NCBI RefSeq assembly: GCF_027111335.1
Contig: NZ_CP114288.1
Coordinates: 2,852,001-2,916,000, forward strand
Length of the DNA stretch: 64,000 nucleotides
Direction: 5' to 3'
From: Flavobacterium aquiphilum
GTDB lineage: Bacteria; Bacteroidota; Bacteroidia; Flavobacteriales; Flavobacteriaceae
The translations under genes were made by a program, and so were the position numbers. The notes under the pieces were generated by a model. The model had not been told where the DNA came from, did no database searches, and was given only the letters and a program-made list of their open reading frames with translations. Below, piece after piece: positions 51,979-55,650 of the stretch; position 1 is the first letter of the stretch; every line of letters begins with the position of its first letter.

Positions 51979-51995
51979 CTTTTTTGCAAAAAATT

Positions 51996-54827
51996 ATGCT
52001 AGATACAGACAATACGATTGAAGTTCAGGGCGCCCGCGTTCACAATCTAAAAAACATAGATATTTCCATTCCGAGAGAAAAACTTGTAGTAATTACGGGT
52101 CTTTCGGGTTCGGGAAAATCCTCATTGGCGTTCGACACTATTTATGCCGAAGGACAGCGTCGTTACGTAGAAACCTTTTCGGCCTATGCTAGACAATTCC
52201 TCGGAGGTTTGGAACGTCCTGATGTCGATAAAATTGACGGACTCTCCCCTGTTATTGCCATCGAGCAAAAAACGACAAGCAAAAGTCCTCGTTCGACTGT
52301 TGGAACCATCACTGAGATTTACGATTTCCTTCGTTTGCTTTACGCACGTGGTGCCGATGCTTCCAGTTATAACACAGGAGAAAAAATGGTTTCTTACTCC
52401 GATGACCAAATCAAAGAACTGATTATTCAGGATTTTACAGGAAAAAGAATCAATATCCTAGCTCCTGTTATCCGAGCCAGAAAAGGACATTATGCTGAAC
52501 TTTTTCAACAAATAACCAAACAAGGATTCTTGAAAGTCCGTGTTAATGGAGATATTTTGGACTTGGTTTCGGGGATGAAATTGGATCGTTATAAAACCCA
52601 CGATATAGAAATTGTTGTTGACAGAATGGTTATTGAGGATACTCCAGACAATGAAAAACGTTTATCCGAAAGTATTAATACTGCAATGCACCACGGTGAA
52701 AACGTATTGATGGTTCTCGATCAGGACACTAATGAAGTGCGTTATTTCAGTCGAAATTTGATGTGTCCTTCAACGGGTATTTCGTATCAAAATCCAGAGC
52801 CAAACTTATTTTCATTCAACTCACCAAAAGGGGCTTGTGACAATTGCAACGGATTGGGAACTGTGAATCAAATCAATGTTGGAAAAATTATACCAAATCC
52901 AAAATTATCGATAAAAGCGGGTGGATTTGCTCCATTGGGTGAATATAAATCATCTTGGATTTTCAAACAATTAGAAATCATTGGCGAAAAGTTTGGTTTT
53001 AAAATAACCGATCCAATTGAAAAAATTCCTGCTGAAGCAATGGAAATGATTTTGAATGGAGGAAAAGAAAAATTCACTATTAATTCAAAAGATTTAGGTG
53101 TTGCCCGCGATTATAAAATTGATTTTGAAGGAATTGCCCATTTCATAAAAAATCAACATGATGAAAGTGGTTCTACGACAATCAGACGTTGGGCAAAAGA
53201 ATTCATGGACGAAATAAAATGTCCTGTTTGCGAGGGTTCCCGCTTGAAAAAGGAAGCCAATTATTTTAGGATAAATGAAAAAAGCATATCCGAGTTGTGT
53301 GATATGGATATTTCCGATTTGACAGCTTGGTTTTTGGATTTGGACAAGCATTTAACCGATAAACAAAAACGAATTGCTACCGAAGTAATTAAAGAAATCA
53401 AAGATCGTTTGGCTTTCCTAATGAATGTAGGCTTGGATTATTTGGCTTTAAGCCGAAGCTCCAAATCGCTTTCGGGTGGTGAGGCACAGCGTATTCGATT
53501 GGCAACGCAAATTGGATCGCAATTGGTCGGGGTCTTATATATTTTGGACGAACCAAGTATTGGTTTGCACCAAAGAGATAACGAAAAATTAATCCATTCG
53601 TTAGAACAATTGCGAGATATCGGTAACTCGGTTATTGTGGTTGAACACGACAAAGACATGATTGAGCGCGCCGATTACGTGATTGATATCGGTCCAAAAG
53701 CCGGTAAATATGGTGGAGAAATTATCAGTATTGGAACGCCAAAAGAAACTTTGGCTTCAGAGACGATTACTGCTCAATATCTGAATGGTAAAATGAAATT
53801 GGAAATTCCCGAAAAACGTCGCGAAGGAAATGGAAAATTCGTGAAATTAACCGGAGCTACAGGGAATAACCTTAAAAATGTTTCGATTGAATTGCCTTTA
53901 GGTAAAATGATATGCGTCACAGGGGTTTCAGGAAGCGGGAAATCAACATTGATCAACGAAACGCTCTACCCTATTTTCAATGCGCATTATTTCAACGGAG
54001 TTAAAATTCCGATGCCATATAAAAAAATCGAAGGCTTGGAACATATTGACAAAGTAATTGATATCGACCAAAGTCCGATTGGAAGAACTCCGCGTTCCAA
54101 TCCTGCGACTTATACCGAGGTTTTCACAGAAATACGAAACCTGTTTACTATGACTTCTGAGAGTATGATTCGCGGATACAAAGCAGGGCGTTTTAGTTTT
54201 AATGTTAAAGGCGGACGATGCGAAACCTGTGAAGGTTCAGGTGTTCGTACAATAGAAATGAACTTCTTGCCTGATGTATATGTAGAATGCGAAACGTGTC
54301 AAGGAAAGCGTTTTAACAGGGAAACATTGGAGATTCGCTATAAAGGAAAATCGATCTCTGATGTATTGAATATGACCGTTGATGAAGCAGTTCCTTTCTT
54401 TGAAAACATTCCAAAAATTTACAGAAAAATAAAAACGATTCAGGATGTTGGTTTGGGCTACATCACGCTTGGGCAACAAAGTACTACTCTTTCCGGTGGT
54501 GAAGCGCAACGTATTAAGTTGGCCGGTGAATTGTCTAAGAAAGACACCGGAAACACTTTTTATATTCTTGATGAACCCACAACAGGTCTGCATTTTGAGG
54601 ATATTCGGGTATTGATGGACGTAATTAATAAATTGGTTGACAAGGGAAATACTATTTTGATTATTGAACACAATATGGAAGTCATCAAACTAGCCGATTA
54701 TATTATCGACATTGGCCCTGAAGGCGGAAAAGGAGGCGGACAGCTTGTAGCCAAAGGAACTCCCGAAGAAATCGTAAAAAATAAAAAAAGCTACACGGCA
54801 CAGTTTTTGAAAAAAGAACTCCCCTAA
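51996..54827 (+). CDS. uvrA: UvrABC excinuclease subunit A
   Basis: Damage-recognition ATPase of nucleotide excision repair. 943 residues in two ABC halves: Walker [13 protein letters not shown] near 35 and [13 protein letters not shown] near 640, ABC signatures [15 protein letters not shown] near 485 and [15 protein letters not shown] near 830, Walker [15 protein letters not shown] and [14 protein letters not shown]. Zinc-binding sites appear at CPSTGISYQ..., [13 protein letters not shown] near 410 and [17 protein letters not shown] near 740. The last residues (KKELP) abut an inserted element; a duplicate of the C-terminal coding sequence at 55461-55500 followed by YLDNVLIK suggests the original protein had a longer tail. 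Confidence 0.97.
54778..54817 (+). repeat. 40-bp direct repeat, left copy (3' end of uvrA)
   Basis: Identical to 55461-55500 except for one base (position 11 of the repeat: A here, G there). It encodes [12 protein letters not shown] of UvrA. The two copies bracket the DUF559 element. Confidence 0.9.
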
Positions 54828-54831
54828 AATT

Positions 54832-54872
54832 CCCCTCCTTTGGAGGGGTGCCTGTAGGGCGGGGTGGTTCAT
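54832..54872 (+). repeat. 41-bp terminal inverted repeat, left
   Basis: Begins CCCCTCCTTTGGAGGGGTG and ends GGCGGGGTGGTTCAT. Its reverse complement is at 55388-55428 with one mismatch (CCTGTAG here, CCCGTAG there). The outer end is itself a 7-bp palindrome around TTT. Confidence 0.9.
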
Positions 54873-54902
54873 GTGTTGTATTTGTAATAATTTTCATAAA
54901 TT

Positions 54903-54910
54903 TACCTTTG
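54903..54910 (+). promoter_or_regulatory. -7 promoter element inside the element, for the DUF559 gene
   Basis: TACCTTTG, 35 bases before the ATG at 54946. It lies inside the inverted repeats, so the element carries its own promoter. Confidence 0.5.
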
Positions 54911-54945
54911 AGATAACATTAATGGTTAGCGCTTAAGATAAAATT

Positions 54946-55377
54946 ATGGAAAGCAAAAATGAAATAACAACTTATATAAACACCCAACCTATCTATAGAA
55001 ATTTCATTGAAAACTTGCCATATAATATAAAACTAAAGTCAAGAGCAAGAGCATTACGGAAAGCAGGAGTATTGTCTGAGGTTATTTTTTGGCGACAAGT
55101 TCACAAAGGGATGTTTTGGAAAATTGATTTTGATAGACAAAGAATCATAGGCAATTATATTGTGGATTTTTATGTAAAAACCTTGGGGTTGATAATAGAA
55201 ATTGACGGTTCAAGTCATAATGATAAAGAAGAATACGACCAAAAGAGAGAAGATTATTTAATATCGCTAGGATTAAAAGTTTATAGAATTTCAGATTTAC
55301 GAGTTAAGCATGATTTGAATAATGTGATGATGGAGTTGGAAAAATATGTTATTGAGGAGTTTGGCAGAAAGTGTTGA
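54946..55377 (+). CDS. DUF559 endonuclease-like protein of a small mobile element
   Basis: 143 residues. DUF559 proteins have a Vsr/very-short-patch-repair-like PD-(D/E)xK nuclease fold. The pattern RARALRKAGVLSEVIFWRQV near 27-45, then WKIDFDRQRIIGNYIVDFYV near 58 and the catalytic-type core LGLIIEIDGSSH near 82-92 (Asp of VDF, Glu-x-Asp), then YRISDLRVKHDLNNVM near 118, is present without breaks. The gene sits inside 41-bp inverted repeats and the whole unit is bounded by a 40-bp direct repeat of uvrA. No transposase is encoded in the unit, so this protein may itself be the mobility enzyme. Nuclease activity is inference. Confidence 0.87.
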   Translation: MESKNEITTYINTQPIYRNFIENLPYNIKLKSRARALRKAGVLSEVIFWRQVHKGMFWKIDFDRQRIIGNYIVDFYVKTLGLIIEIDGSSHNDKEEYDQKREDYLISLGLKVYRISDLRVKHDLNNVMMELEKYVIEEFGRKC

Positions 55378-55387
55378 TTATATCCAT

Positions 55388-55428
55388 ATGAACCACCCCG
55401 CCCTACGGGCACCCCTCCAAAGGAGGGG
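55388..55428 (-). repeat. 41-bp terminal inverted repeat, right
   Basis: Reverse complement of the left repeat with one mismatch. It starts 11 bases after the DUF559 stop codon. Confidence 0.9.
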
Positions 55429-55460
55429 AAGACTAACCGAAAATTCTAGAATAAATCCTG

Positions 55461-55500
55461 AAAATAAAAAGAGCTACACGGCACAGTTTTTGAAAAAAGA
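55461..55500 (+). repeat. 40-bp direct repeat, right copy (remnant of the original uvrA end)
   Basis: Matches 54778-54817 with one mismatch. In the frame of uvrA it reads [12 protein letters not shown] and continues ELYLDNVLIK to a TAA, which looks like the original C-terminal tail of UvrA. Confidence 0.85.
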
Positions 55501-55544
55501 GTTATATTTAGATAATGTCTTAATAAAATAAAAACTGAACTGAA

Positions 55545-55650
55545 AAACGGATGCCCTAGCCCCGAGAAGTGGAAATCCTTTTGTCTCGTCTTTTGGACGA
55601 GGTAAAAAGATTGCAATCTCGTCTTTTGGACGAGACGGGATTAGCTCCAA
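55545..55650 (+). repeat. Structured repeat, same family as at 51.8 kb, with two hairpin modules
   Basis: TAGCCCCG at 55557-55564, AGTGGAAATCCTTTTG, two copies of CTCGTCTTTTGGACGAG (55585-55601 and 55618-55634) separated by AAAAAGATTGCAAT, CGGGA at 55636-55640 and a CTCCAAAAAA end. It lies between the uvrA remnant and the LOG gene. Confidence 0.6.

Follow-up and report, generated by a model that had tools for sequence, protein, structure and literature searches.

Analysis of a 64,000-nucleotide stretch of the Flavobacterium aquiphilum genome (contig NZ_CP114288.1, positions 2,852,001 to 2,916,000, forward strand; hereafter the window), part of a complete 5.05-Mb chromosome, showed that a small gene for a DUF559 nuclease behind uvrA lies between two inverted copies of a repetitive extragenic palindrome (REP). 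Related nucleases are each accompanied by repeats of a matching type, an arrangement suggesting that the nuclease spreads the repeats. The locus is probably a REP-nuclease unit, in which a DUF559 enzyme between inverted cognate REPs works in the manner of REPs and their REP-associated tyrosine transposase (RAYT), with an unrelated enzyme doing the mobilizing. REPs are common in bacterial genomes, and their movement is usually attributed to the RAYT, an HUH transposase. DUF559 is a family of unknown function in Pfam. The pairing gives it a concrete substrate hypothesis, provides orphan palindromes with a candidate enzyme that can be tested, and may explain the presence of nuclease domains inside housekeeping enzymes. 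The locus has the following features, with positions counted from the first letter of the window.

51984-54827, plus strand: uvrA, the host gene, ending KKELP-stop; its tail matches the FLKKELx-stop of 27 of 27 relatives with an empty site
54726-54827, plus strand: left copy of the uvrA tail duplication, the working one
54830-54869, plus strand: left REP, with hairpin 1 CCCCTCC-TTT-GGAGGGG (54832-54848), hairpin 2 GCCTGTAGGGC, and inner end GGGGTGGTT
54882-54910, plus strand: TTG-N18-TAccTTTG, a weak promoter candidate
54946-55377, plus strand: DUF559 nuclease gene, 143 aa (Pfam PF04480, 8.7e-26)
55385-55430, minus strand: right REP, in the opposite orientation to the left REP
55431-55511, plus strand: right copy of the uvrA tail, now decayed, with the strong match at 55461-55500

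The nuclease gene, the inverted repeats around it, and a direct repeat of the uvrA end had been noticed in an earlier reading of the sequence alone (the original prediction), and all three are present. The inverted repeats (54830-54875 and 55385-55430) are 46 nt long, slightly longer than the 41 bp claimed, and 96% complementary, with 509 nt between them. The direct repeat (54778-54817 versus 55461-55500) is 40 nt with one mismatch. What that reading missed is the main feature, the cognate REP family to which the inverted repeats belong. A 17-nt core, CCCCTCCTTTGGAGGGG, gave five matches with up to three mismatches compared to 0.01 expected from dinucleotide shuffles of the window, and four of the five fall at the two arms of the DUF559 unit. 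No transposase domain was found in the unit, as had been stated; for the bracketed gene, a profile search returned only DUF559 and a sub-cut-off MTES_1575 match, and no PF01797. The suggestion that the gene has its own promoter is unsupported. It comes down to one match to a Bacteroidetes-like promoter pattern, which is no more frequent ahead of other DUF559 genes (2 of 79) than in control windows (22 of 1100).

Further analysis of the arms showed that they are two-hairpin REPs. From the outside inwards, each consists of (AA)TTCCCCTCC-nnn-GGAGGGG, TG, a second small hairpin, and GGGGTGGTT. Folded as single-stranded DNA, both arms beat their shuffles (z of -2.88 for the left and -2.87 for the right). 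Hairpin 2 often varies on both sides yet stays paired among 105 repeats from 66 loci (window included), and the Chryseobacterium and Epilithonimonas versions are longer. A crude routine with no shuffled control found a stem of at least 4 bp in 71 of the 105; among the remaining 34 are Chryseobacterium forms whose outer base is unpaired. The same REPs are also dispersed. Twelve matches at E < 1e-6 were found in the genome that holds the window, two of which are the arms and 10 of which lie elsewhere. Six of these 10 form three close head-to-head pairs in reversed orientation, REPIN-like, with near-constant spacers of 10 bp (TACGTTCGAC, TACGAACGAC, and TACGAACGAC in one orientation). Two arrays were also seen: one of 15 REP hairpins at a spacing of ~153 bp, all on one strand (G162:C1:95889-98047), and a tandem REP array between uvrA and the DUF559 gene of Flavobacterium micromati (L048, 3508-4000).

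The bracketing is not peculiar to this genome. One genome per species was scanned, which gave 195 DUF559 relatives, and the best 80, mostly from Bacteroidota, were kept. Inverted repeats were sought in 300-bp flanks, with windows from the same loci as controls; three loci (L062, L064, and L108) were untestable. At a score of at least 30, inverted repeats were found at 67 of the 77 testable loci compared to 8 of 790 control windows, and at a threshold of 35 the counts were 64 and 2, respectively. The association between DUF559 and inverted repeats is general. The same REP family is recognizable across Flavobacteriales and in further Bacteroidota. In other phyla, 11 of 18 DUF559 records from a plasmid collection were read for repeats, and six had inverted C-rich hairpin repeats of their own type (two each in Sinorhizobium, Sphingomonas, and Pseudanabaena). 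The settings of the genes differ widely, with 38 different neighbor pairs among 73 loci, and many elements adjoin gene ends closely. In the plasmid collection, DUF559 was seen between sufB and sufC (L188), before dnaG (L180), within an annotated protein of 1621 aa (L190), and between a DUF1156 gene and a hypothetical gene (L183).

The pairing was examined within the genus, Flavobacterium, to which the closest relatives of the window in the species collection belong. From 150 genomes drawn, small free-standing DUF559 genes and their flanking repeats were recorded, and each gene was assigned to a subfamily by the best tblastn hit among three queries; a broken copy in G067, with two stops, was left out of the fetched loci. 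A canonical REP stood on at least one side of 19 of 20 window-like loci (window included) compared to 0 of 15 loci of a second subfamily (Fisher 4.9e-9; related species were counted as independent, so that this and the other p values for the pairing overstate the case). The second subfamily had repeats of its own: REP v1 (CCCCTCTTGAGAGGGG...) at 10 loci, v2 at two, v3 at one, and none at two. Bracketing inverted repeats with a score of at least 30 were present at 17 of 19 fetched window-like loci and at 12 of 15 second-subfamily loci. In three genomes (G078, G128, and G115), both subfamilies coexist, each beside its own repeat; a fourth, G136, has both, with no repeat at the second gene. Such within-genome pairs are a cleaner control than cross-genome counts. 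Genome-wide, of the 19 genomes with a window-like gene, 16 had at least three canonical hairpins, compared to 16 of 131 others (p of 3e-10). Of the 14 genomes that carry the other subfamily, 9 had at least three REP v1 copies, compared to 3 of the remaining 136 (p of 5e-9); for at least one v1 copy, the numbers were 10 of 14 and 10 of 136. REP v2 occurred in 5 of the 150 genomes, among them both genomes whose DUF559 gene it flanks. Reversed-pattern controls gave zero in all 150. DUF559 subfamily and repeat type are cognate.

The nuclease itself has a fold that resembles the homing endonuclease I-Bth0305I and Vsr (Vsr/EDxHD-like), and a genome paper has assigned one DUF559 gene to the EDxHD family (PMC9403480). 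Six residues, E45, D74, E85, D87, H91, and D98, are invariant in 32 aligned sequences, window included; of these, E45, D74, H91, and D98 are candidates for the E-D-x-H-D active-site residues. The ratio of nonsynonymous to synonymous substitutions (dN/dS) of the DUF559 genes at the uvrA site had a median of 0.055 over 45 of 66 pairs. Pairs whose dS was saturated or failed are excluded, one of them the pair formed by the window and L043, and many dS values exceed 1. The nuclease is under purifying selection. The copy at the uvrA site of F. xinjiangense (L043) has a stop at codon 14.

These observations can be accommodated in a simple scheme. The nuclease would recognize its own REP, as a hairpin or as a duplex, and nick it. 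Host repair would then copy REPs or REP pairs into other sites, frequently close to gene ends and without a fixed target duplication, and the whole nuclease-REP unit would move rarely. Rare movement of the unit fits both the 38 neighbor pairs among 73 loci and long persistence at one site. The duplication of the uvrA tail, ~100 bp with the outer copy decaying, may be a by-product of a single repair event, since both of its breaks share a short A/G-rich microhomology with the REP end. A broader claim is that DUF559 represents a second, independently evolved class of REP-mobilizing enzyme, a Vsr/EDxHD-like nuclease that would recognize hairpin repeats and spread them by break and repair in several phyla, and that the element can settle in frame in essential enzymes (MetH, LeuS, and RecB-like proteins) with its repeats as peptide linkers. 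This claim is tentative, falling a little short of an even chance.

The closest parallel is with the REP/RAYT systems (REPtron, REPIN, GTAG superfamily), and several likenesses are apparent. First, an enzyme gene lies between inverted REPs. Second, the same repeats are dispersed as singles and as head-to-head pairs. Third, enzyme and repeat types are cognate. Finally, REPs occur near gene ends and within genes. However, the RAYT is a Y1 transposase of the HUH type (PF01797), whereas here the enzyme is a Vsr-like DUF559 nuclease, and the GTAG tag is not conserved here, although it occurs in some hairpin 2 sequences, in a repeat that is two-hairpin and C-rich. The comparison is one of working alike; the enzyme and the tag both speak against membership. 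One large REP superfamily has been reported to lack a dedicated transposase (Di Nocera et al. 2013, PMC3733652). For the CGTC-tagged REPs of that survey, which are palindromic and mostly head-to-head dimers, no dedicated transposase is reported. Assignment of the window REP to them was dropped on stem, loop, and tag: the stem is 8-9, the loop 4-5, and the terminal tag CGTC there, compared to a stem of 7, a loop of 3, and no CGTC here. Because of the tag misfit, the DUF559-REP pairing is not claimed to solve the CGTC case. Homing endonucleases of the EDxHD type, such as I-Bth0305I, share the catalytic fold, but here no intron or intein was seen, cognate repeats are dispersed, and inheritance at uvrA looks vertical. 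Vsr, the very-short-patch repair endonuclease, is similar in fold only, in contrast to a repeat-bracketed unit, and a DDE insertion sequence differs in that this unit has no transposase and, at most non-uvrA loci tested, no flanking direct repeat above background, although a very short duplication would escape that test. No paper coupling DUF559 with inverted repeats was found, and no DUF559-REP link appears in the literature searched (subscription papers and preprints were outside the search, and most papers were left unopened).

Several observations weigh against the view that the nuclease mobilizes the repeats. First, the patterns for the repeat types were defined after the first 16 genus loci had been seen, and the p values given above overstate the pairing on this count as well. 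Second, the 16 of 131 genomes that hold at least three canonical hairpins (for instance, G005, G101, G069, G074, and G107) have no window-like DUF559 gene; the gene may have been lost there or may not be needed. Third, not every gene has the expected repeats. Ten of the 77 relatives had no inverted repeat at the score threshold of 30, five of the 11 loci read in other phyla had none, and of four free-standing genus loci of "type B," a score of 30 was reached at L207 alone, where the repeat is of a different kind. A Neisseria DUF559 gene (the twelfth plasmid-collection record) is flanked by direct rather than inverted hairpin copies. Fourth, a shared preference for gene ends could explain part of the association. 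Finally, judged from sequence divergence, the nuclease at uvrA looks vertically inherited, which means that the unit as a whole can have transposed only rarely. The Neisseria repeat dRS3 was considered as a partner of DUF559 and was not found within the 2.3 kb read.

Other explanations for the locus, namely, passive association, homing at uvrA, and mobilization by Y1 transposases, are each less likely than a REP-cognate nuclease. Repeats and nuclease may be passive neighbors: ordinary gene-end hairpins spread by something else, with DUF559 a Vsr-like repair or defense enzyme that sits among them. This is unlikely, even though many of the elements lie close behind gene ends and Caulobacter VsrA is a DUF559 protein with a proposed role in mismatch repair (PMC12907096). 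Paired repeats were found in only 8 of the 790 same-locus control windows, and the type of repeat follows the nuclease subfamily even within one genome. As for defense, the search for an anti-phage system gave weak partial PADLOC matches only.

Homing, the mechanism that the original prediction favored, is about as improbable, by a hair more so. The nuclease would cut the empty uvrA end and be copied in by recombination between the uvrA flanks, the repeats being merely borders. The fold match to I-Bth0305I fits this, as does the sporadic presence of the element at uvrA ends (G000, G007, and G029 of 30 loci); of the uvrA ends read in 29 relatives, only those of G007 and G029 have it, and no PF04480 match lies beside uvrA in the other 27. 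A related domain occupies one fixed MetH site, filled in four and empty in 23 of 30 loci. The left and right copies of the uvrA tail also differ slightly less inside one genome than across genomes (distance of 0.276 versus 0.300), so that some gene conversion is possible. However, the comparison of the uvrA loci does not support active homing there. DUF559 was found behind uvrA at 12 related loci besides the window (L037-L048). In a tree of 44 DUF559 sequences (the window and 43 of the 80 loci), the window and the uvrA loci form one branch with support of 99/98; L048, labeled otherwise in the tree, is also a uvrA locus. The distances of DUF559 and uvrA correlate over 12 loci (Mantel r of 0.76, p of 0.0002). 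One insertion followed by descent fits both the single branch and a divergence that tracks uvrA. Homing also leaves unexplained the dispersed nuclease-free REPs, the cognate repeat types, and the relatives found between 38 different neighbor pairs. What stands of the earlier homing-like mobile unit is a nuclease gene between inverted repeats with no transposase domain, its absence from the uvrA end of 27 of 29 relatives, and the fold.

The duplication at uvrA bears the same mark of a single event. It is present in 10 of the 12 further loci, weakly in one of them. The left repeat abuts the uvrA stop in the window and in L037-L046, and the other break lies ~100 bp upstream in uvrA at GGAAAAGG, by the A-rich REP end, in the loci with a long enough right copy. 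The left copies are conserved (mean distance of 0.171) compared to the decayed right copies (0.302), and the right copy in the window has one extra base ahead of the old TAG compared to the others. It had been proposed that ELYLDNVLIK, at the end of the right copy, is the original UvrA tail. This is not supported: UvrA does end in KKELP at present, as had been read, and because all 27 element-free uvrA ends read FLKKEL, one residue, and a stop, ELYLDNVLIK is a relic and KKELP the conserved, working, normal tail. A direct duplication had also been expected to accompany such elements elsewhere. The test for flanking direct repeats reached 68 of the 80 loci, leaving out 12 with a weak inverted repeat. 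Of 11 uvrA loci tested, nine scored at least 60, L046 scored 26, and L047 had none. Among the 57 non-uvrA loci, no direct repeat above background was found at 55 (scores of up to 24; a very short duplication would escape the test), the exceptions being a repeat array at L071 (score of 86) and a weak case at L116 (score of 34). The uvrA duplication is the mark of one old insertion in one Flavobacterium clade and not a general signature of the element.

Movement of the repeats by the Y1 (IS200/RAYT-like) transposases of the genome, with DUF559 hitchhiking, is very improbable. The genome does have four PF01797 matches, and a hairpin copy lies ~1.1 kb from one of these genes (L179). However, no CCCCTCC hairpin lies beside any of the four Y1 genes; three are flanked by unrelated inverted repeats of their own, and at the fourth no such repeat exceeds the control. 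A Y1 transposase as the REP partner was rejected for this genome only. The three genes with inverted repeats of their own, unrelated to the DUF559 REP, are L177, L178, and L179; L177 and L178 score above the NCBIfam cut-off for IS200/IS605 and below it for the REP-associated model. Chance juxtaposition or an assembly artifact is refuted by the 12 further loci with DUF559 behind uvrA, ten of them with the tail duplication, and by a repeat core expected only 0.01 times.

DUF559 domains also occur in frame inside housekeeping enzymes, at the following places.

G000:C1:701977-702288 (L001, L211) and L147-L175: in-frame DUF559 domains

The 30 best-scoring genus loci hold 32 domains: 14 at MetH site 1, five at MetH site 2, four in RecB/UvrD-like helicases (one of these, of 1258 aa, in the genome of the window), three in LeuS, and six free-standing. 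Four examples of the in-frame domains were run against Pfam. Open frames of at least 300 aa hold 59 of the 102 higher-scoring genus DUF559 matches (at least 78 bits). The MetH site 1 linkers of relatives were filled in four, empty in 23, and unreadable in three of 30 loci. In several cases, REP-like hairpins flanking the in-frame domains are translated as peptides, e.g., PPAPKGGVK and APPSGAGGA. Rickettsia palindromic elements are likewise palindromes inserted in frame in protein genes; the difference is that some of the insertions here also carry a nuclease domain. Shortened REP hairpins were seen in frame in two other open reading frames of the genome of the window, one PurL-like (L016, 4039547) and one radical-SAM-like (L017, 1761440), both names being the analyst's reading of the sequence.

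Downstream of the unit, the spacer that separates uvrA from the following gene (window positions 55554-55628) gave a weak match to the Rfam Flavo-1 RNA (25.6 bits with a gathering threshold of 42, E of 0.0067). A loose pattern for the start of Flavo-1 matched 10 of 263 loci, some of them overlapping.

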